From Jejuia pallidilutea (GTDB lineage Bacteria > Bacteroidota > Bacteroidia > Flavobacteriales > Flavobacteriaceae): a DNA stretch of 64,000 bases. The stretch lies in assembly GCF_002973595.1 (NCBI RefSeq), contig NZ_PVEO01000003.1, forward strand, positions 1-64,000, in the 5' to 3' direction. Below are positions 32,930 through 40,854 of this stretch, in pieces. The notes below the pieces were generated by a model, which had not been told where the DNA came from, did no database searches, and saw only the letters and a list, made by a program, of their open reading frames with translations. Both the position numbers and the translations under genes were made by a program. Every line of letters begins with the position of its first letter. Position 1 is the first letter of the stretch.

Positions 32930-33062
32930 GCATTAACAAATGTTTAAATTTTAATGAATATACAATTTTGAAGCACAAAGATACGTTATCTTTAAAAATT
33001 ATGAGATTTTTTTTAATATTTCGCAATATGATACGAAAGACAAATGCGCTTTATCAGAATTA

Positions 33063-33093
33063 TTTGGTGGTTCATCGACTTTTTATATATTTG
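33063..33093 (+). promoter_or_regulatory. Canonical Bacteroidetes promoter
   Basis: TTTG (33063-33066), exactly 19 bases, then TATATTTG (33086-33093) reproduces the -33/-7 consensus of the primary sigma factor in this phylum. It is the best promoter match in the window and lies 30 bases before the ATG at 33123. Confidence 0.8.
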
Positions 33094-33122
33094 TTGCGTT
33101 AACGCCTCGAAAATAAAATATT

Positions 33123-33926
33123 ATGATGCTTGACTTTAAACGTTTAGCTCTTATCTTTTGCGTGTTTGCTTTAAGCCAAACAGCATACTCTCAATTAGGC
33201 TTCTCTCACGAAATAGGCGTTATTGCAGGTCCTGTACAATTTAGATCTGACTTTGGTAGTCGCGACGACGAAAAAACAAACTTTGGTAACTCTGGTATTG
33301 GCATTGGCTTAGTGCACTACATAAACTTCTCTTACAGAGCAGACTGTAACTGCTACACAACCGATACGTATTTTAACGACCACTTTAAACTTAGAAACGA
33401 AATTTCTTGGAACAAAACTAAATTAGAGCATTTAGGAAGGTGGACACAACCAGACAGAACAAGCGATAATGCCGATAGGCTTAGAGGGCACACCGGTTAT
33501 GCAAATAATTTAGATATTGGGACTCAGCTAGAGTTTTTTCCTTTAAGTATTAGGTCGTTCCAATCCTATGGTTATGCCATTGCACCTTATGTTAGTTTAG
33601 GGGTGCATTACACCTTTTTTAACCCTGAAGTTATAACAACTTACGATAATGGCACTAATGATGTTGGTAATATTGGAGATCCAAATAATTTTTACTCAAT
33701 TTGGGCACCTGGATCGGTACAACCACTATCTGGCAGCACTTGGTCTATGGTAACTAGTGCTGGTATAAGGTATAAGGTTGGTAGACTTTCTGATATTGTT
33801 GTAGATTTAAGATGGCAATATTACTTTGATGATTGGGTTGACGGTTTAAACCACGATTTAGTTTATAACAAAAACAACGATTGGTTACTGTGGTTAAATA
33901 TAGGCTACATCTACTACCTTAATTAA
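33123..33926 (+). CDS. Outer-membrane protein of the THC0290_0291-like family
   Basis: The 267-residue protein has a signal peptide (ending LSQTAYSQ, about 17-24), then LGFSHEIGVIAGPVQFRSDF (about 26-45), which matches my recollection of the flavobacterial THC0290_0291 family. A CNC motif (RADCNCYT) and a barrel-like C-terminus (VVDLRWQYYFDDW, WLNIGYIYYLN) follow. The product is expected in the outer membrane. No function is known. A strong promoter directly upstream suggests high expression. Confidence 0.6.
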   Translation: MMLDFKRLALIFCVFALSQTAYSQLGFSHEIGVIAGPVQFRSDFGSRDDEKTNFGNSGIGIGLVHYINFSYRADCNCYTTDTYFNDHFKLRNEISWNKTKLEHLGRWTQPDRTSDNADRLRGHTGYANNLDIGTQLEFFPLSIRSFQSYGYAIAPYVSLGVHYTFFNPEVITTYDNGTNDVGNIGDPNNFYSIWAPGSVQPLSGSTWSMVTSAGIRYKVGRLSDIVVDLRWQYYFDDWVDGLNHDLVYNKNNDWLLWLNIGYIYYLN

Positions 33927-33951
33927 AAATTAGTATTCATACACGTTAATT

Positions 33952-34671
33952 TTGGCTAAAAGAACTTTTTTATTCTTTCTAACATCTCTTTTGGTATTTT
34001 CATGTAAAAAGGAAGATGAACTTACTTTTTCTGAGATACAAGTAACCACGAATAACAATACTATAGTAGAAGTTTTTATTCCTAAAGCTACAGGAAACAA
34101 AGCTACCAGTAAAGCCATAAATACAGAAATTGAAAATTTTATAGCCTCTTTACTAGAAATAGGAGAACCTAAAGCAAAAACAAAGCCTTCATCTTTAACC
34201 AAACAAATTGAAGCGTTTAATAGCGAATACACCAATTTTATAAAAGATTTTCCAGAAGTTACACAACTATGGGAAGCACAAATAGATGGTGAAGTTATAT
34301 ATCAATCTAAAGATATTGTAAGTATAGCTATTACCGCCTATTTAAACACTGGTGGCGCACATGGCAATACTAATATTTCTTTTTTAAATTTCGATGCTGC
34401 TACGGGCAAACGCATTTTAAAAGAAAAGCTTATTACAAACACCAAAGCATTTACAAACATTGCCAAAACATATTTTAACGAAGAATTGACGGATAAGTCT
34501 ATACTGTTTGAACCTGAAAGTTTTACACTTCCTGAAAATATTGGGATTTCTGAAGAAGGTATAATTTTACTTTACAATACCTATGAAATTGCCCCTTACG
34601 CCAGTGGAATTATTGAGTTTACCATTCCTTTTGAAAAAATAAAAAACTATTTAATTTTTAATAGCTTTTAA
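33952..34671 (+). CDS. DUF4163/DUF3298 lipoprotein
   Basis: The 239-residue protein starts with TTG and has a lipoprotein signal (FFLTSLLVFSCKKED, Cys at about 17). A DUF4163-like region covers about 25-120, and a DUF3298 domain follows with GGAHGNTNISFLNFD (about 136-150) and YASGIIEFTIPFEKIK near the end. This two-domain layout occurs in RsiV-like proteins and in many Bacteroidetes lipoproteins of unknown role. It follows the barrel gene by 25 bases and is probably co-transcribed. Its 3' end overlaps the convergent DinB gene by 21 bases. Confidence 0.7.
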   Translation: MAKRTFLFFLTSLLVFSCKKEDELTFSEIQVTTNNNTIVEVFIPKATGNKATSKAINTEIENFIASLLEIGEPKAKTKPSSLTKQIEAFNSEYTNFIKDFPEVTQLWEAQIDGEVIYQSKDIVSIAITAYLNTGGAHGNTNISFLNFDAATGKRILKEKLITNTKAFTNIAKTYFNEELTDKSILFEPESFTLPENIGISEEGIILLYNTYEIAPYASGIIEFTIPFEKIKNYLIFNSF

Positions 34672-35115
34672 CAGTGCTAACACATAGCCGTAATGCAACC
34701 CTTCGTGTATGGCGGCAAATTGTAACGCTTCGTCAATATTACTTAATGTGTTGCCTGTGGTAGAAACGGTATATGCATTATACTTTTCAAACACATCATC
34801 GTAATAATCTTCTTTAGTTTTTTCTAATGTTGAAGTTAATAAACCTTTAATTTCATCAACCTCCCCTTGAGACACATCACCATTTGGTTTACTATCCTTT
34901 CTATAGTTGTTAATCATCTCATCAGACAATGATGATTCTAAACCAGACAATTTATAAGCCAATAACTGTTCTGTAACAACTATATGACCAATATTCCAAA
35001 TAATGTTATTATTAAAACCATTAGGAATTTTATTTAACTCTGCTAGTGAATTCGTTTCGATTATTTCTTTAAAAATTTTCCTTGTATTTTCTAAAACCTG
35101 AAATGTAAATTCCAT
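34651..35115 (-). CDS. DinB-fold protein
   Basis: I place the start at the ATG at 35115 (154 residues, MEFTFQVLENTRKIFKE). The longer frame to 35175 crosses the start of the divergent gene. The four-helix DinB pattern is visible: IWNIGHIVVTEQLLAYKLSG (about 38-57) with the first metal His, and AIHEGLHYGYVLALLKAI at the C-terminus with the other His residues (HEGLH). These proteins are putative metal-dependent hydrolases or thiol transferases with unknown substrates. Confidence 0.8.
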   Translation of the reverse strand: MEFTFQVLENTRKIFKEIIETNSLAELNKIPNGFNNNIIWNIGHIVVTEQLLAYKLSGLESSLSDEMINNYRKDSKPNGDVSQGEVDEIKGLLTSTLEKTKEDYYDDVFEKYNAYTVSTTGNTLSNIDEALQFAAIHEGLHYGYVLALLKAIKN

Positions 35116-35173
35116 ATTATGTAAATTTTTTGATAAATATAGTTTTAATTTGTTTTTTGAAACCAATACATCC

Positions 35174-35524
35174 ATGAAAAAAGTATATTATTTAAAGACT
35201 TGCGATACGTGTAGACGAATTTTAAAAGAACTAGACTTGTCTTCTGAATTTGAGTTACAGGATATTAAAAGCGAAGCTATTAGTGTTACGCAGCTAGACG
35301 AAATGAAGGCTCTTGCGGGTAGTTATGAAGCCCTATTTAGTAAACGCTCTCAACTCTACAAGAAAATGAATTTAAAAAATCAAGAGTTAACAGAAAAAGA
35401 CTTTAAAAATTATATTCTAGAGCATTATACATTTTTAAAGCGGCCTGTTATCATTATAGATGATACTATATGTATCGGTAATTCCAAAACAACTATCGAG
35501 AAAGCTAAAGCTACTCTAGGCTAG
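35174..35524 (+). CDS. ArsC/Spx-family thioredoxin-fold protein
   Basis: From the ATG at 35174 the protein is 116 residues, standard for the ArsC/YffB/Spx group. YYLKTCDTCRRILKELDL (about 4-21) carries the CxxC. ELQDIKSEAISVTQLDEM and LFSKRSQLYKKM, then the RPVIIIDDTICIGNSK end (about 95-110), complete the fold. Arsenate reductases need an Arg triad that I cannot confirm, and no arsenic genes are nearby, so a glutaredoxin-like or reductase role is equally possible. It diverges from the DinB gene with a 58-base gap. Confidence 0.8.
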   Translation: MKKVYYLKTCDTCRRILKELDLSSEFELQDIKSEAISVTQLDEMKALAGSYEALFSKRSQLYKKMNLKNQELTEKDFKNYILEHYTFLKRPVIIIDDTICIGNSKTTIEKAKATLG

Positions 35525-35530
35525 TAATAC

Positions 35531-35595
35531 AATGTAGAGGTAGTACATAAAAACAAAAAAGCCTAACATTACTGTTAGACTTTTGCTCCTCAGGC
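35531..35595. repeat. 65-bp direct repeat, copy 1 (distal flank of the GIY-YIG cassette)
   Basis: This copy and 35913-35978 differ by three substitutions and one extra A. Read on the minus strand, the repeat contains the last bases of a tRNA-like acceptor stem, a hairpin terminator and the first six codons of a GIY-YIG gene (MYYLYI). In this copy the frame then stops after four more codons. The start-to-start distance between copies is 382 bp. Confidence 0.85.
35555..35580 (-). terminator. Terminator copy after the GIY-YIG gene
   Basis: On the minus strand GTCTAACA, loop GTAA, TGTTAGGC and six T. It is a near-identical copy of the terminator that follows tRNA-Asn. Confidence 0.75.
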
Positions 35596-35661
35596 GTGTC
35601 CCGTAGCTACGGGAGACCCTCTGATTAATGCCGCACCTGCGGAACTCTAACCAACCGAGCC
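35586..35661 (-). pseudogene. Decayed tRNA-Asn-like sequence
   Basis: On the minus strand, GGCTCGGTTGGTTAGAG, TTAATCAGAGGGTC and GCCTGAGGAG line up with the D arm, 3' anticodon stem and acceptor stem of the intact tRNA-Asn at 35969-36042. The anticodon loop is replaced by a small hairpin (CCGCA-CC-TGCGG, 35631-35642) and the T arm by a perfect 16-bp palindrome (35599-35614, TCCCGTAG and its complement). It cannot fold as a working tRNA. The D-arm part is translated as the C-terminus of the GIY-YIG protein. Confidence 0.75.
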
Positions 35662-35930
35662 AATTTTCCGTTGGGCACAAACTCTTCATCTATTAATTTC
35701 AATAACAACGTCCTGCTTTTTTGCTTTTTCACAAACCGCTCAATTTTTTTGGCATCACCGCGGGTTATGCCCGCTTCAAAAACAGCCTTTAGAACCCATG
35801 GCCTGTATTTTGAGGTATAAGTGTTAAATTTGGATGTGTTGTGTGATTGTAAACGCTTCCATGGTGCTTGTGAAGAACCAACATAAAACCTGTTAAAAGT
35901 TTCCGAATATATAATGTAGAGATAGTACAT
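35625..35930 (-). CDS. Small GIY-YIG nuclease attached to tRNA-Asn
   Basis: The 101-residue protein is a single GIY-YIG domain: YYLYIIYSETFNRFYVGSS (2-20) gives the two signature strands, WKRLQSHN (about 24-31) the catalytic Arg, and DAKKIERFVKKQKSRTLL the following helix with an acidic residue. It is the size of UvrC-N/YhbQ-like stand-alone domains. The last residues KLARLVRVPQVRH are encoded by a tRNA-like sequence. The gene starts right after the terminator of the intact tRNA-Asn and is flanked by 65-bp direct repeats. A homing or mobile role at tRNA genes is suggested by this layout. A DNA-repair or housekeeping role cannot be excluded. Confidence 0.85.
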   Translation of the reverse strand: MYYLYIIYSETFNRFYVGSSQAPWKRLQSHNTSKFNTYTSKYRPWVLKAVFEAGITRGDAKKIERFVKKQKSRTLLLKLIDEEFVPNGKLARLVRVPQVRH

Positions 35931-35978
35931 GAAAACAAAAAAAGCCTAACATTGCTGTTAGACTTTTGCTCCTCAGGC
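35913..35978. repeat. 66-bp direct repeat, copy 2 (proximal flank)
   Basis: This is the partner of 35531-35595. It spans the first six codons of the intact GIY-YIG gene, the tRNA-Asn terminator and the last ten bases of tRNA-Asn. Confidence 0.85.
35937..35963 (-). terminator. Terminator of tRNA-Asn
   Basis: Read on the minus strand, GTCTAACA, loop GCAA, TGTTAGGC (8 bp with one G-T pair) and seven T, a few bases after the tRNA 3' end. Confidence 0.85.
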
Positions 35979-36042
35979 TGGGCTCGAACCAGCGACCCTC
36001 TGATTAACAGTCAGATGCTCTAACCAACTGAGCTACTGAGGA
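35969..36042 (-). tRNA. tRNA-Asn (anticodon GTT)
   Basis: On the minus strand the sequence starts TCCTCAGTAGCTCAGTTGG and ends CTGAGGAG, giving a 7-bp acceptor stem (TCCTCAG/CTGAGGA) with discriminator G. The D arm AGCTCAGTTGGTTAGAGC, the anticodon arm CTGACTGTTAATCAG (anticodon GTT) and the T arm GCTGGTTCGAGCCCAGC are all intact. CCA is not encoded. The length is 74 bases. A hairpin terminator follows, and the GIY-YIG gene begins directly after it. Confidence 0.97.
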
Positions 36043-36115
36043 AGGTTATGTTTCGCTTTTGCGAGCGCAAATATATATTAAATTTTATTTACTACAAATA
36101 TAATGACCAAAAAAA

Positions 36116-37462
36116 TTAGTCAAAAATTGCCTTATAAATGTCGTTGCCATTAGCAAATAATACTAGAGCAATTAAAATAAAGAAACCTACCATTTGTGCA
36201 TACTCCATAAACTTGTCTCCCGGTTTTCTTCCTGATATCATTTCGTAGAGTAAGAACATTACATGTCCGCCATCTAAAGCTGGTATTGGCAATAAGTTTA
36301 ACACTGCTAACATTATGGATAAAAACGCTGTAATACTCCAAAAGGCTTGCCAACTCCAAAAGTTTGGAAATATGTCGTAAATAGCTTTAAAACCGCCAAC
36401 GCCTTTGTAAGCTCCTGTGCTTGGTGTAAAAATTGCTTTAAGTTGCCCCCAATATGAAGTTAATCTGTCTTTAGCTTTATTTAATCCTACAGGAAACGAC
36501 TCAAAAAAACCATATTTTCTAACATCGTATTCATAATAACCAAGTGCTTCGAGAGTTTCTGGAGTTGATGCAGGTGCATAAACTAGACCTAATTTACCTT
36601 CATTACTTATTGACAGAGATGTTGAAAATTCAGCATCATCTCTCAAAATACTAGCTGTAACTTGTTGCCCTTTAAACTCATCTAAGGCTTGTTTTACCTG
36701 ATCTGCATATCTTGTTTTAAAATCATTTATGCCAACAATAATATCTCCTTTTTTAAGGCCGCTAGTTGCATTATGCGATGTATCTGGAACCTGAACAATT
36801 ACAAAAGGCTGCCTTAAATCTATCAAGCCTTTTTCTTTTGAATCCATTAATTGCGACAAAAAGTCTTGAGGCATAGAAATCGTTAATTGTTCGTTGTTTC
36901 TTTCAACCAGTACCTCTTTACCAAACAATACTTTTTCAGGAATTTCAGAAAAGGTTTCAATATTTTCGCCATCAACAGCCAAAATACGGTCTCCTGTTTG
37001 GAAACCCTCTTGTTTTAGTACAGGGCTCTCTATCACTAAACCATCCTTAATATTGTTATTTGGCAAAAACATGTCTCCGTAGAAATAACTCATTCCTATG
37101 TAGATAATTATAGCTAAAACAAAATTAACGGTAACTCCGCCCAACATTATAATCAATCGTTGCCATGCAGGTTTAGAGCGGAACTCCCAAGGCTTAGGAG
37201 CTTCTTTCATAGCTTCGGTATCCATGCTTTCGTCAATCATTCCAGATATTTTCACATAGCCTCCCAAAGGCAACCAACCTATACCGTAAACCGTTTCACC
37301 AATTTTCTTTTTGAATAGCGAAAACTTCACATCAAAAAACAAGTAAAATTTTTCTACTCTTGTTTTAAAAGCTTTAGCGGGAATAAAATGCCCTAACTCG
37401 TGCAAAACAATAAGTAAAGACAAACTCAATAAAAACTGAGATATTTTTATAACAAACTCCAT
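36116..37462 (-). CDS. rseP: Site-2 protease RseP
   Basis: This inner-membrane zinc metalloprotease performs the second cut in regulated intramembrane proteolysis of anti-sigma factors. I use the ATG at 37462 (448 residues, MEFVIKISQFLL). The longer frame begins with a TTG inside the -7 box TACTTTTG (37493-37500, minus strand). HELGH (about 21-25) binds zinc, NLLPIPALDGGHVMF (about 390-404) is the second catalytic segment, and two PDZ-like regions lie between (about 125-300). PQMVGFF-type residues and a last helix complete four membrane segments. The substrate anti-sigma factor is not in this window. Confidence 0.94.
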   Translation of the reverse strand: MEFVIKISQFLLSLSLLIVLHELGHFIPAKAFKTRVEKFYLFFDVKFSLFKKKIGETVYGIGWLPLGGYVKISGMIDESMDTEAMKEAPKPWEFRSKPAWQRLIIMLGGVTVNFVLAIIIYIGMSYFYGDMFLPNNNIKDGLVIESPVLKQEGFQTGDRILAVDGENIETFSEIPEKVLFGKEVLVERNNEQLTISMPQDFLSQLMDSKEKGLIDLRQPFVIVQVPDTSHNATSGLKKGDIIVGINDFKTRYADQVKQALDEFKGQQVTASILRDDAEFSTSLSISNEGKLGLVYAPASTPETLEALGYYEYDVRKYGFFESFPVGLNKAKDRLTSYWGQLKAIFTPSTGAYKGVGGFKAIYDIFPNFWSWQAFWSITAFLSIMLAVLNLLPIPALDGGHVMFLLYEMISGRKPGDKFMEYAQMVGFFILIALVLFANGNDIYKAIFD

Positions 37463-37598
37463 ATAATCTTCATCAAAATTAAAATAATCGCACAAAAGTA
37501 CGTTTTTAAACCAAGTTTAAAAAAGCAATTATACAATTGCATTGGCTTTTAACAGTAATTTAAGTGAAGGCTATGTATACTAAGATTTAAAATAGCCG

Positions 37599-37606
37599 TA
37601 TTTTTG
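37599..37606 (+). promoter_or_regulatory. Probable -7 box for the SCO-like gene
   Basis: TATTTTTG fits TAnnTTTG, 30 bases before the ATG at 37637. Confidence 0.45.
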
Positions 37607-37636
37607 TATTGGTTTATAAAATTTTAATTGCTTAAA

Positions 37637-38305
37637 ATGTTATCGTTTTTTAAAGACTACAAATTGTTTGCTATTGTGTTTGGTGCTATTTCTATTGTAA
37701 TTATTGCATTAATCTACAATACGCTAAACGTTTACCAACCGCTACCTATTTATCAGCCTTCTATGGTAAGCACTCAGTTGGTTGATAGTACCATTCAATA
37801 CAAAAAAAAATACCATAAAATTGCCGATTTTAGTTTAGTAAATCAAAATGGCGATACCGTAACGCAAAATACGTACAAGAATAAAATTTATGTAGCAGAT
37901 TTCTTTTTTACTACATGCCAAACCATTTGCCCAATTATGACGAGCCACATGGCCGAAATACAAAAAGAAATTATGGATGATGAAGAGGTTATGCTATTAT
38001 CGCATTCGGTTACTCCTGAAATCGATTCGGTTGCACAACTTAAGCGATACGCTACAAAAAAGGGGGTGATTGATAAAAAATGGAATTTGGTTACTGGCGA
38101 TAAAAAAGAGATTTACAAATTAGCCCGAAAAAGTTATTTAGCAGTAAAAGATAACGGCGATGGTGGGCCTTTTGACATGATACACACCGAAAATTTTATG
38201 CTAATTGATAAAAAGCGACAAATTCGTGGATTTTACGATGGCACAAATGCCGAGGATATTGAAAAACTAATAGACGATATTGCCATTTTAAAAGAAGAGC
38301 AATAG
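37637..38305 (+). CDS. SCO1/SenC-family copper chaperone
   Basis: From the ATG at 37637 the protein is 222 residues with an N-terminal membrane anchor (LFAIVFGAISIVIIALIY, about 9-26) and a periplasmic thioredoxin-fold domain. DFFFTTCQTICPIMTSHM (about 91-108) holds the CxxxC copper site and DMIHTENFMLID (about 177-188) the distal His, so all three copper ligands are present. The family delivers copper to the CuA site of cytochrome oxidase. No oxidase genes are nearby. An in-frame TTG three codons upstream is less likely as the start. Confidence 0.9.
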   Translation: MLSFFKDYKLFAIVFGAISIVIIALIYNTLNVYQPLPIYQPSMVSTQLVDSTIQYKKKYHKIADFSLVNQNGDTVTQNTYKNKIYVADFFFTTCQTICPIMTSHMAEIQKEIMDDEEVMLLSHSVTPEIDSVAQLKRYATKKGVIDKKWNLVTGDKKEIYKLARKSYLAVKDNGDGGPFDMIHTENFMLIDKKRQIRGFYDGTNAEDIEKLIDDIAILKEEQ

Positions 38306-38357
38306 CTTTTGTGATGTGTTTTTACTTAAGAACTAAAAAACAAACATTACAAATACG

Positions 38358-38456
38358 CCCGCGCTAGGGATTGTAGCGGCAGCTTTTGGTCCCGCCAATG
38401 CGGGAAGCCAAAACTATTAGCGGAAAGCCCGACCCTTTAGGGTAGCGCCCAAATAA
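38358..38456. repeat. Structured intergenic element, copy 2 (possible RNA motif)
   Basis: It shares CCCGCGCTAGGGATTG and GGGTAGCGCCCAAATAA ends and the AGCCCGACCC box with 9680-9779. The central hairpin is longer here (CTTTTGG, TCCCGC, loop CAAT, GCGGGA, AG, CCAAAA), and a small GACCC-TTTA-GGGT hairpin precedes the end. It sits about 50 bases after the SCO-like gene and before the feoA promoter. Confidence 0.6.
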
Positions 38457-38491
38457 TTACACTTTATCTTTTAAACTTATAAAGTTTCCTG

Positions 38492-38499
38492 TATTTTTG
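38492..38499 (+). promoter_or_regulatory. Probable -7 box for feoA-feoB
   Basis: TATTTTTG fits TAnnTTTG, 26 bases before the feoA TTG start. No Fur-type palindrome was recognised around it. Confidence 0.45.
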
Positions 38500-38525
38500 C
38501 TTCTTTAAAATCAATCTAAATAAGC

Positions 38526-38762
38526 TTGAAGCACACTTTAGCACAATTAAAACGCGGAGAACATGCAGTAATTGCTGATGTTTCGTCTATACACATCCCT
38601 CTAAAACTTTTAGAAATGGGATGCTTACCAGGGAATTCTGTGGAGTTGGTACAAGTGGCACCGTTTCAAGATCCTATGTATTTAAATGTAAATGGTACAC
38701 ACTTAGCAATTAGAAAAGAAACTGCTGCCCATATTTTAATAGAAAAAATTTCTAATGAGTAA
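38526..38762 (+). CDS. feoA: Ferrous iron transport protein A
   Basis: The 78-residue protein has the SH3-like FeoA fold: LAQLKRGEHAVIADV (5-19), LLEMGCLPGNSVELVQVAPF (about 28-47) and LNVNGTHLAIRKETAAHIL. FeoA is a cytoplasmic partner of FeoB. The start is TTG at 38526, as there is no ATG in a sensible place. Its end overlaps feoB by 8 bases, so the two are translated together. Confidence 0.93.
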   Translation: MKHTLAQLKRGEHAVIADVSSIHIPLKLLEMGCLPGNSVELVQVAPFQDPMYLNVNGTHLAIRKETAAHILIEKISNE

Positions 38763-40854
38763 ACAAATAAATGTAGCACTTATTGGCAACCCCAATACGG
38801 GAAAAACATCGGTGTTTAATGCACTAACGGGCTTAAACCAAAAGGTAGGAAACTACCCTGGTATTACAGTTGAAAAGAAACAAGGTATTTGTAAATTACC
38901 CCGAGGTGTAAAAGCGCATATTATTGATTTACCGGGCACTTACAGCTTAAACGCCTCGTCTCTTGATGAAAATGTTGTTATAGAATTACTACTTAACAAA
39001 AACGATAAAGATTTTCCTGATATTGCCGTTGTAGTTACCGATGTAGAAAACCTAAAGCGTAACCTATTACTCTTTACGCAAATAAAGGATTTGGAAATAC
39101 CTACGGTATTGGTAATAAATATGGCAGACCGAATGGGCTACAAGGGTATTTCTTTAGATATAGACTATTTAGAGGAAAAACTACATACCAAAATTGCCCT
39201 AATAAGCACACGTAAAAACGAAGGTATTGATAAGCTAAAAGATTTAATAACCAATTTTAAAGATGTTTCTGTAAGTCCGTGTTTAGATACTACAACTATA
39301 GATCCTATATACTTTGGCAATCTAAAAAAAGCATTTCCAAATCAGTTATTATACAAACTTTGGTTGGTTATTACCCAAGATGTTAATTTTGGAAAAACCA
39401 ACAGGAAAGAGTTTGATGCTGTTGCAGATTTTAAAACCAAAAGTAAGGGCGATTTAAAACGATTACAGCAAAAGGAAACCATAAAACGCTACCAATTTAT
39501 TAACAACGCTTTAGCCAAAGGACAATCTATAGATTTAAGTAGAGCTAAAGATTTACGAATAAAACTAGATAGAATTTTAACGCATAAAGTTTGGGGGTAT
39601 TTAATTTTTGGAATTATTCTTTTAACAATATTTCAAGCCATTTACGATTGGTCTAGCGTACCTATGGATTTTATTGACGGACTTTTTGCCAATTTAAGCG
39701 AATGGACTAAAAACATAATGCCAGAAGGGGCATTTACCGACTTAATTGCCGAGGGTATTATTCCTGGGCTGGGGGGTATTGTTATTTTTATTCCACAAAT
39801 AGCCTTTTTATTTTTGTTCATAGCTGTGCTCGAAGAAAGTGGCTATATGAGTCGCGTTGTATTTTTAATGGACAGAATAATGCGGCGTTTTGGCCTAAGC
39901 GGTAAAAGTGTAGTGCCTTTAATTTCTGGTACTGCCTGTGCAATTCCCGCCATTATGGCTACCCGTAATATTGAAAGTTGGAAAGAACGTTTAATTACCA
40001 TTTTGGTAACACCTTTTACAACATGTTCGGCACGCTTGCCGGTATACCTCATCATTATTGCTTTGGTAATCCCCGAAGGAAGATTTTTTGGGTTAAGCTA
40101 CCAAGCCTTAACTTTAATGTTACTATACCTTATTGGGTTTGGAACCGCTATTGTATCGGCTTATATTCTTAATAAAATTTTAAAAATACGAAGCAAGACG
40201 TTTTTTGTTATAGAAATGCCCAACTACAAATTGCCTTTGCTTAAAAATGTAGTTTTAACGGTTATTGAAAAAACAAAATCGTTTGTATTTGGTGCCGGAA
40301 AAATAATTTTAGCCATATCCATCATTCTTTGGTTTTTGGCATCGTATGGTCCAGGAGAACAATTTAACAATGCCGAAACTATCGTTAAAACCCAATATGC
40401 TTCACAAAATTTAAACGAAGAGGATTTGCAACAAAAAATTGCATCTCATAAATTGGAACATTCGTTTATAGGCATTGCAGGTCATGCGATTGAGCCTGCC
40501 ATTAGGCCTTTGGGCTACGATTGGAAAATAGGTATTGCCATTGTAAGCTCTTTTGCTGCTCGCGAAGTTTTTGTAGGTACACTTGCTACAATTTATAGTG
40601 TAGGTAACGATGATGAAGCCACCATTAAAAATAGAATGGCCGCAGAGGTAAATCCTATTTTAGGAGGCCCTTTGTTTAATTTTGCTTCGGGTATTTCCTT
40701 GTTGCTATTTTATGCATTCGCTATGCAATGTATGAGCACACTTGCTATTGTTAAAAAAGAAACAAATAGTTGGAAATGGCCAACACTGCAATTGGTAATA
40801 ATGTCGGCCTTTGCCTATATTGTAGCTTTAATTGCTTTTCAACTTTTAAAATAA
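38755..40854 (+). CDS. feoB: Ferrous iron transporter FeoB
   Basis: FeoB is the inner-membrane Fe(II) importer with an N-terminal G protein. It is 699 residues. GNPNTGKTSVFNAL (11-24) is the P loop, VGNYPGITVEKK (about 32-43) the switch I region, DLPGTYSL (about 59-66) the G3 motif and NMAD (about 122-125) the G4 motif. Two gate repeats follow, with GIIPGLGGIVIFIPQIAFLF and later SFAAREVFVGTL, and about eight helices. The length is usual for Bacteroidetes. It is coupled to feoA and followed by a tiny Cys-rich membrane protein. Confidence 0.95.
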   Translation: MSKQINVALIGNPNTGKTSVFNALTGLNQKVGNYPGITVEKKQGICKLPRGVKAHIIDLPGTYSLNASSLDENVVIELLLNKNDKDFPDIAVVVTDVENLKRNLLLFTQIKDLEIPTVLVINMADRMGYKGISLDIDYLEEKLHTKIALISTRKNEGIDKLKDLITNFKDVSVSPCLDTTTIDPIYFGNLKKAFPNQLLYKLWLVITQDVNFGKTNRKEFDAVADFKTKSKGDLKRLQQKETIKRYQFINNALAKGQSIDLSRAKDLRIKLDRILTHKVWGYLIFGIILLTIFQAIYDWSSVPMDFIDGLFANLSEWTKNIMPEGAFTDLIAEGIIPGLGGIVIFIPQIAFLFLFIAVLEESGYMSRVVFLMDRIMRRFGLSGKSVVPLISGTACAIPAIMATRNIESWKERLITILVTPFTTCSARLPVYLIIIALVIPEGRFFGLSYQALTLMLLYLIGFGTAIVSAYILNKILKIRSKTFFVIEMPNYKLPLLKNVVLTVIEKTKSFVFGAGKIILAISIILWFLASYGPGEQFNNAETIVKTQYASQNLNEEDLQQKIASHKLEHSFIGIAGHAIEPAIRPLGYDWKIGIAIVSSFAAREVFVGTLATIYSVGNDDEATIKNRMAAEVNPILGGPLFNFASGISLLLFYAFAMQCMSTLAIVKKETNSWKWPTLQLVIMSAFAYIVALIAFQLLK

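Follow-up and report, generated by a model that had tools for sequence, protein, structure and literature searches.

The question raised by this locus is how a small nuclease gene came to lie between an intact tRNA gene and a broken copy of the same tRNA in Jejuia pallidilutea, and whether these parts together form a mobile element. In the window (the whole stretch of 64,000 nucleotides that was analysed) all of the parts lie on the minus strand, in the order intact tRNA-Asn, terminator, GIY-YIG nuclease, tRNA relic, second terminator and the first codons of a second nuclease gene. ARAGORN placed the intact, functional tRNA-Asn(GTT) at 35968..36042; it is single copy, with one full-length match in the genome and three partial ones (83-88% identical). 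The first terminator, delimited from the sequence and the repeats, runs from the tRNA up to the start codon of the nuclease (35931..35967). It is followed by the nuclease ORF of 101 aa (35625..35930; ORF, Pfam and AlphaFold model), the tRNA-Asn relic (~35585..35663; repeats and gapped alignment), the second terminator, which matches the first copy (35549..35584), and the nuclease gene stub from the ORF list (35516..35548), which encodes MYYLYIVLLA in ten codons before a stop. We consider, with moderate confidence, that the locus is one member of a widespread Bacteroidota family of free-standing, intron-less homing elements that target tRNA genes.

The two repeat copies were aligned at 35527-35595 and 35909-35978, with four substitutions and one 1-nt indel, and are spaced 382/383 bp apart. 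A preliminary description of this DNA had given a flanking repeat of 65/66 bp with three substitutions and one indel, and the same counts are obtained over the shorter span from 35531; its 382-bp nuclease cassette agrees with the measured spacing of 382/383, and the intact gene of 101 aa lies at 35625-35930 (-). The truncated distal gene start that it reported, MYYLYI followed by four codons and a stop, was found again at 35516-35548 (-) as MYYLYI-VLLA-stop. This stub begins ATG-TAC-TAC and lies at the end of an ORF on the opposite strand (35150-35524), which we take to be ArsC-like; it is read as the putative remnant of a further tandem unit, multi-copy arrays being known in relatives. The description of the repeat as acceptor end, terminator and gene start is right as to these three parts and incomplete as to the unit, which holds most of a tRNA besides. 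Similarity to the tRNA picks up again beyond the palindrome and the gapped alignment reaches 35660/36033, so that the distal copy is a broken tRNA gene at ~35585-35663.

The relic contains the D-arm, a replaced anticodon arm, the variable loop, a replaced T-arm and the acceptor 3' end. The end of the nuclease ORF falls within it: the last 12 codons (LARLVRVPQVRH) run through the D-arm and then a hairpin, the D-arm doubling as coding sequence for part of the nuclease C-terminus, and the stop codon TAA sits in the tRNA sequence TTAATCAG (GGCAT-TAA-TC). The hairpin that replaces the anticodon arm, TTCCGCAGGTGCGGCA (35629..35644 on the minus strand, from the sequence), is a slightly decayed version of TCCCGCACGTGCGGGA found in relatives. 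Besides the D-arm, the relic retains the bases TTAATCAGAGGGTC and the acceptor end GCCTGAGGAGC, and at the position of the T-arm there is instead TCCCGTAGCTACGGGA plus CAC. This second hairpin, located by palindrome search on the minus strand (35599..35614), fits TCCCGN6CGGGA, of which there are 2 sites in the window against 0.01 expected by chance. The other site, 38390-38405, is part of a longer repeat, about 100 bp as judged by eye, that is dispersed and recurs in the same genome at G000:C3:157154, C15:2309 and C4:122668.

The protein carries a GIY-YIG domain (Pfam PF01541, E 9.3e-14, 51.9 bits, cut-off 22.6). Its AlphaFold model has a mean pLDDT of 91, the tRNA-encoded tail being less certain, and its nearest folds are Slx1 (E 1.9e-4) and then UPF0213 (E 3.4e-3), with weaker matches to UvrC and I-TevI (E 0.2-3); PDB profile matches were likewise to UPF0213 and Slx1. 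Residues Y5, Y16, G18, R26, H30 and E64, presumably the equivalents of the GIY-YIG catalytic residues, are invariant in 11 aligned nuclease sequences, and genes of the family encode about 80-100 aa. The group I intron endonuclease profile TIGR01453 (NCBIfam) gave 16.8 bits, below its cut-off of 56.05. No PHROG match was obtained for the window protein at 0.01; a relative of the tRNA-Pro type (L002) weakly matches the phage homing endonuclease family phrog_314 (E 4.8e-4 at best). Searched with tblastn, a set of 50,697 phage records gave no match to the window protein at 1e-3, and no relatives were found in the phages, plasmids and viral contigs searched, one of these searches being made with a single degenerate pattern.

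Occupancy of the rseP-tRNA-Asn locus was scored in 12 congeners with rseP as anchor; in the window, we take 36116-37495 to be rseP and 38755-40854 to be feoB. The cassette is present in four (G000, G001, G003 and G010) and missing in eight (G002, G004-G009 and G011), the call for G011 resting on ~180 bp readable past the tRNA. The preliminary description had proposed a comparison of strains at this tRNA-Asn and had named one fixed syntenic place in all relatives, with no empty sites, as a finding that would refute it; this is ruled out by the 8/12 empty congeners. The intact tRNA-Asn is identical in sequence in the empty congener G009, where it is followed by a terminator with a CCTTAAC stem and then by tRNA-Arg sequence. 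In the filled congener G001, which with G009 forms the clearest pair, a terminator of the G009 type and tRNA-Arg follow the relic; what was gained is thus the nuclease DNA together with another copy each of the tRNA 3' part and the terminator. At the level of sequence, this pair demonstrates insertion together with tRNA duplication, and filled and empty alleles of one site, one mark of a free-standing homing endonuclease, both occur.

The layout of the locus recurs within the genus and beyond it. G001 and G010 also bear the nuclease at tRNA-Asn, and G003 has a tandem array of three there, with spacings of 385 and 405 bp. The layout of the locus is shared by a Croceivirga bin (L016) and a bin of Chitinophagaceae (L017); in a Bacteroidales bin (L018) the contig starts within a unit and no intact tRNA is visible there, and in a Bacteroidetes bin (L019) the nuclease is at tRNA-Val. 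At a tRNA-Met locus of another genus, an array of 10 copies with a period of 457 was found in G166, its neighbouring copies 99-100% identical, and none in G669. As to the history of the locus, rseP places G001 near G000 (84%) and G010 far from it (56%), and feoB reverses this picture (G001 83%, G010 93%). Transfer inferred from rseP versus nuclease identity was set aside, as feoB contradicts it; since the two genes disagree on the closest congeners, incongruence at the tRNA-Asn locus is weak evidence of transfer, and their opposite pictures suggest recombination around the locus.

Relatives were searched with a profile (A1) built from 11 nucleases of the family. It detected the family in 179 of 395 genomes of the class (E<=1e-12, with at most 12 candidates scored per genome) and in 94 of 247 genomes of the phylum (E<=1e-15). 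The 124 loci that were read are the top ones among the matches listed, 29 of them supplied and 95 from further clusters. Among these, the first nuclease copy has a same-strand tRNA no more than 250 bp upstream in 92/124 loci and an opposite-strand one in 0/124; the gap between tRNA and nuclease has a median of 46 bp in the 92 linked loci. Eight loci have less than 250 bp upstream before the contig end, which makes the linkage 92/116; among the matches listed, 24 of the 116 loci with enough DNA are without a tRNA in that interval, and in seven loci that lack an upstream tRNA, one lies on the same strand within 250 bp downstream. The upstream tRNAs of the 92 listed loci comprise 17 anticodons and 13 amino-acid types: Asn (22), Met(CAT) (19), Val (17), Ala (7), Leu (6), Asp (5), Pro (5), Arg (4), His (2), Ser (2), Lys (1), Thr (1) and Gly (1). 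For the loci added later from the phylum search, an upstream tRNA was seen in 16/23, or 16/18 with enough upstream DNA, one of the 23 (L210) being a cluster already counted. A different GIY-YIG family, searched in 80 relatives of which 25 had matches, served as control; none of its 30 loci has a tRNA within 250 bp upstream, and only one has a tRNA in the ~3.3-kb locus at all, on the same strand ~480 bp upstream. The preliminary observation holds, and its scale is wider than first described, with the family in 179/395 class genomes and 92/124 listed loci linked to tRNAs of 13 types.

A mirror-image layout was observed at tRNA-Pro(GGG) in the window genome (G000:C7, L002 ~1424-1809) and in L011, where the intact tRNA is downstream of the nuclease and a relic 5' half upstream of it; the hairpin of L002 is ATTACGCCAAGGCGTAAT. 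In L089 tRNA-Pro(GGG) is likewise downstream of the nuclease.

Directly after the nuclease, a copy of the same tRNA was detected in 54 of the 92 listed tRNA-linked loci (score of at least 40), against 0/84 in a far-region control. The relic 3' end was located in 48/92 listed loci, 43 of which could be compared with other tRNAs of the same anticodon; it matches its own tRNA better in 39, equally in four and worse in none, although the relics were located using their own tRNA, a bias that favours this match. Conservation of a terminator only, which the preliminary description had named as a finding that would speak against its view, is ruled out by these 39 better, 4 equal and 0 worse matches of 43. 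In 28 of 45 loci compared (out of the 48 with a relic 3' end among the 92 listed), the first terminator best matches the post-relic terminator of its own locus, and in 17 it does not; in L126 the match extends to the base preceding the nuclease ATG. From the terminator and relic matches, the duplicated stretch is often a tRNA 3' part plus terminator, and this stretch looks host-derived. The first terminator appears to be of the host type in most loci compared, a pattern more in line with target duplication or gene conversion than with simple donor copying. Chance, terminator-only conservation or an assembly artefact can practically be dismissed as the source of the whole pattern: the terminators are indeed duplicated, with no other support found, and the length of the repeat, the tRNA homology on both sides of the hairpins, the recurrence in many genomes and the controls all tell against it.

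Tandem arrays of up to 10 copies were found, with a unit period of mostly 340-530 bp and one nuclease ORF per unit. A clean proximal-to-distal decay of these arrays was not borne out. The last copy is truncated in 6 of 21 loci (L058, L065, L081, L090, L105 and L144; that of L148 is cut by the contig end), and in four loci (L083, L095, L113 and L138) it is a first or middle copy that is split or shortened, so that there is no clear gradient. In 63/63 nuclease pairs of 62-99.5% identity and without internal stop, pS exceeds pN, and the median dN/dS is 0.14 over the 19 of the 63 pairs with finite dS; on these figures, the nuclease is under purifying selection. A first tree was made of 128 nucleases, namely 120 of the 124 listed class loci, the window protein and 7 further loci, on which tRNA type needs 25 changes versus 68.2 when shuffled. 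Both labels were available for 96 rows, and for these tRNA type needs 26 changes versus 63.7 shuffled (lowest of 100 shuffles 56) and host family 77 versus 80.4 (lowest 75), on a tree of 87 columns with many unresolved forks and few rows per host family. As judged from this tree, the spread of the nuclease follows tRNA type rather than host family.

Near-identical units and truncated members are also what unequal crossing-over produces, and purifying selection suits any functional role. Plain tandem duplication by ordinary recombination, with the nuclease as a passenger or as a host gene that adjusts tRNA copy number, is nevertheless improbable. The extra tRNA copies read are broken and non-functional, so that tRNA dosage is not raised; the nuclease lineages sit on 13 amino-acid types in a patchy set of genomes and track the tRNA, not the host family; and a single-copy insertion has its empty counterpart (G001 versus G009).

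Of the 56 loci whose relic aligns well, 49 bear hairpins of the type TCCCG..CGGGA or similar, and the pattern was absent from the intact tRNAs of the same 56 loci. In the relic a tRNA arm is replaced by the hairpin; the intact tRNA is unchanged and retains any site that lies wholly within the tRNA. Hairpin positions are about 24-35 for Asn (except L065, 32-43, and L095, 47-50), 28-45 for Val, 36/38-46/48 for Met (except L073), 38-50 for Asp in two loci and 31-44 in a third (L081), about 27-44 for Arg, Lys and two Leu loci, and variable for Ala. The place of the hairpin is thus largely set by tRNA type. In five loci (L031, L113, L115, L147 and L148) the hairpin is in the T-loop, directly after GGTTC or GGTTCG. 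Among the 92 listed loci, hairpin relics are on both sides in 16, downstream only in 33, upstream only in 13 and on neither side in 30. Upstream of the intact tRNA, hairpin-bearing 5' tRNA parts were found in 28/90 loci, with control values of 4 for a random tRNA of another type and 2/84 further upstream. Among the distinct TCCCG..CGGGA strings close to the end of the nuclease, a few of them terminators, the inner stem pairs are complementary in 52/53 and 42/50, against means of 27.5 and 15.4 after shuffling.

The idea that the hairpin is confined to relics is ruled out: the genome holds 10 TCCCG..CGGGA palindromes, several inside longer dispersed repeats unrelated to tRNA, and 13/30 control GIY-YIG loci have such a hairpin within 700 bp, which speaks against specificity. 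A second GIY-YIG family (L165-L194), not linked to tRNA, is also present in the window genome at G000:C10:94916-95215 (L003/L165). Palindromes such as ATTCCGCACTTGATGCGGAAT, with stems of 7 bp or more, lie within 160 bp on both sides in 9/30 of its loci against a background of 1/30. REP/RAYT systems (TnpA-REP) are described as short palindromes tied to a nuclease gene (PMC3733652, PMC6006769, PMC8266576). The layout of the second family is REP/RAYT-like, but its enzyme is GIY-YIG. The tRNA-linked element likewise differs from REP/RAYT, whose enzyme is HUH, in that its enzyme is GIY-YIG by profile and fold, with no HUH Y1 transposase, and in that its palindromes lie inside broken tRNA genes at preferred positions.

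These observations can also be read as a hairpin-directed, REP/RAYT-like element with a GIY-YIG enzyme, in which a structure-specific nuclease recognises hairpins or cruciforms of tRNA arms and of the TCCCG..CGGGA palindrome, relocating or copying the hairpin along with adjacent DNA, double-strand-break homing not being the main route. We regard this as rather unlikely, even with several points on its side: the nearest fold, Slx1, is a structure-specific GIY-YIG nuclease; pairing is kept while the hairpin sequence varies; the hairpins sit in tRNA arms, mostly the anticodon arm according to isotype, or in the T-loop of the five loci above; hairpin-bearing 5' parts upstream exceed those obtained with a random tRNA of another type (28/90 versus 4); and the second family is palindrome-flanked well above background (9/30 versus 1/30). 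Similar palindromes, however, occur in these genomes without an adjacent nuclease of this family, so that they may be an independent repeat family, and no excised form or joint was seen.

A broader version may be put forward tentatively, namely that there is a new minimal class of mobile element in which Bacteroidota GIY-YIG nucleases act on DNA hairpins, tRNA-gene arms being the targets here. The hairpin would replace the arm, and the nuclease and tRNA pieces would be copied to either side of one intact tRNA; the sister subfamily L165-L194 would do likewise with interspersed palindromes elsewhere. Such a unit would keep to one tRNA type across host families, with an estimated need for ~300 bp of DNA of its own, and would leave nuclease-free, hairpin-bearing tRNA pieces behind, as in the 28/90 upstream cases and in L221 as far as it can be read. 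The latter (G258:C21) is at the tRNA-Met locus that carries the array in G166; there, a terminator and a hairpin-bearing 3' part of tRNA-Met are repeated in tandem, without nuclease in the ~280 bp readable up to the contig end, and these repeats are possible satellite derivatives.

The grouping of nuclease lineages by tRNA type and the many relics altered at the anticodon would also suit a tRNA-cleaving toxin that cuts the RNA of the adjacent tRNA type at the anticodon, with the relic transcript, which lacks the site, as a decoy inhibitor. This is very improbable. GIY-YIG enzymes are known to act on DNA, and the folds nearest to this one belong to DNA nucleases; the insertion within the tRNA gene and the empty sites are left unaccounted for, and many relic alignments are without the 5' acceptor strand.

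We therefore return to the homing element and to how it compares with known systems. Homing endonucleases of group I introns are known in tRNA genes (PMC3984707). They target a conserved part of these genes, the GIY-YIG type is found among them, and the element is like such intron homing genes in target choice only. The Bacteroidota element is intron-less, and duplication rather than splicing preserves its tRNA function. A group I intron was ruled out in an Rfam gathering scan of 12 element loci, which returned tRNA only, with no other RNA family for the relics and no intron. Integrase islands restore the tRNA on insertion, leave a 3' tRNA fragment as a direct repeat and can be stacked in tandem. 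The element is like them in restoring the tRNA and unlike them in its period of mostly 340-530 bp, in the hairpin inside the repeat and in having 5'-half versions too; no integrase was recognised by eye in the unit, which is one ORF, or among the ORFs of 33000-39000. The empty sites and the exclusion of terminator-only conservation lend support to the preliminary description's idea of a very small, tRNA-attached mobile element of homing type, distinct from integrase islands.

The closest likeness is to SegB of phages T4/T6, a homing endonuclease of the GIY-YIG type that is described as free-standing and encoded next to tRNA genes of the phage (PMC13096335, citing Brok-Volchanskaya 2008). According to the same passages, SegB makes its cut within tRNA genes and causes tRNA and segB to be amplified together in tandem; the tRNAs near segB genes are of widely varied types, and the preferred motif of the enzyme is RAWTSGAAC (PMC13096335). 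By our own reading this motif is the reverse complement of the tRNA T-loop, which is why the loci with T-loop hairpins are of interest. Both are free-standing GIY-YIG nucleases adjoining tRNA genes; SegB is described in phages, the Bacteroidota elements are in bacterial genome assemblies with one tRNA each, and relic tRNAs, hairpin replacement and the insertion of one nuclease at one tRNA are features of the latter of which the passages on SegB make no mention (PMC13096335). On the best reading, the Bacteroidota element would work most like SegB, but with the host tRNA remaining functional. No description of GIY-YIG genes joined to tRNA relics in Bacteroidota was found in the open-access literature searched.

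Hairpin replacement, tandem growth and the clustering of nuclease lineages by tRNA can be read off the compared sequences; the cutting of the empty tRNA by the nuclease, homing and the role of the hairpin we infer. The nuclease would cut the empty tRNA gene at the present position of the hairpin, and repair of the break would install the nuclease and duplicate part of the tRNA, leaving one functional tRNA. The hairpin would remove the cut site from the spare tRNA copy. Arrays would be built as the intact tRNA is cut again and recombines unequally, and some of them would decay, as in the Jejuia pallidilutea window.

Very small tRNA parasites of a group not yet described seem to be present in many genomes of Bacteroidota. 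Such parasites would strike at essential genes, in this case a single-copy tRNA, yet leave them unbroken, at a target conserved across species, and the spare tRNA copies are marked by hairpins. If the mechanism holds, bacterial chromosomes would host a form of homing that needs no intron and brings its own rescue copy. The element may also explain odd annotations, such as small GIY-YIG genes with tRNA-derived tails and spurious tRNA-SeC calls, as well as contig breaks at tRNA genes. ARAGORN made tRNA-SeC calls in tRNA-Val relic regions of three loci (L009 1441-1520, L010 1789-1865 and L013 1430-1506), and these look like false calls caused by broken tRNA copies. Nuclease copies were seen within ~100 bp of contig ends in G071:C25, G094:C85, G170:C5, G224:C45, G364:C57, G424:C33 and G113:C8, among others, which is expected if arrays break short-read assemblies; true array copy numbers are probably higher than those assembled.
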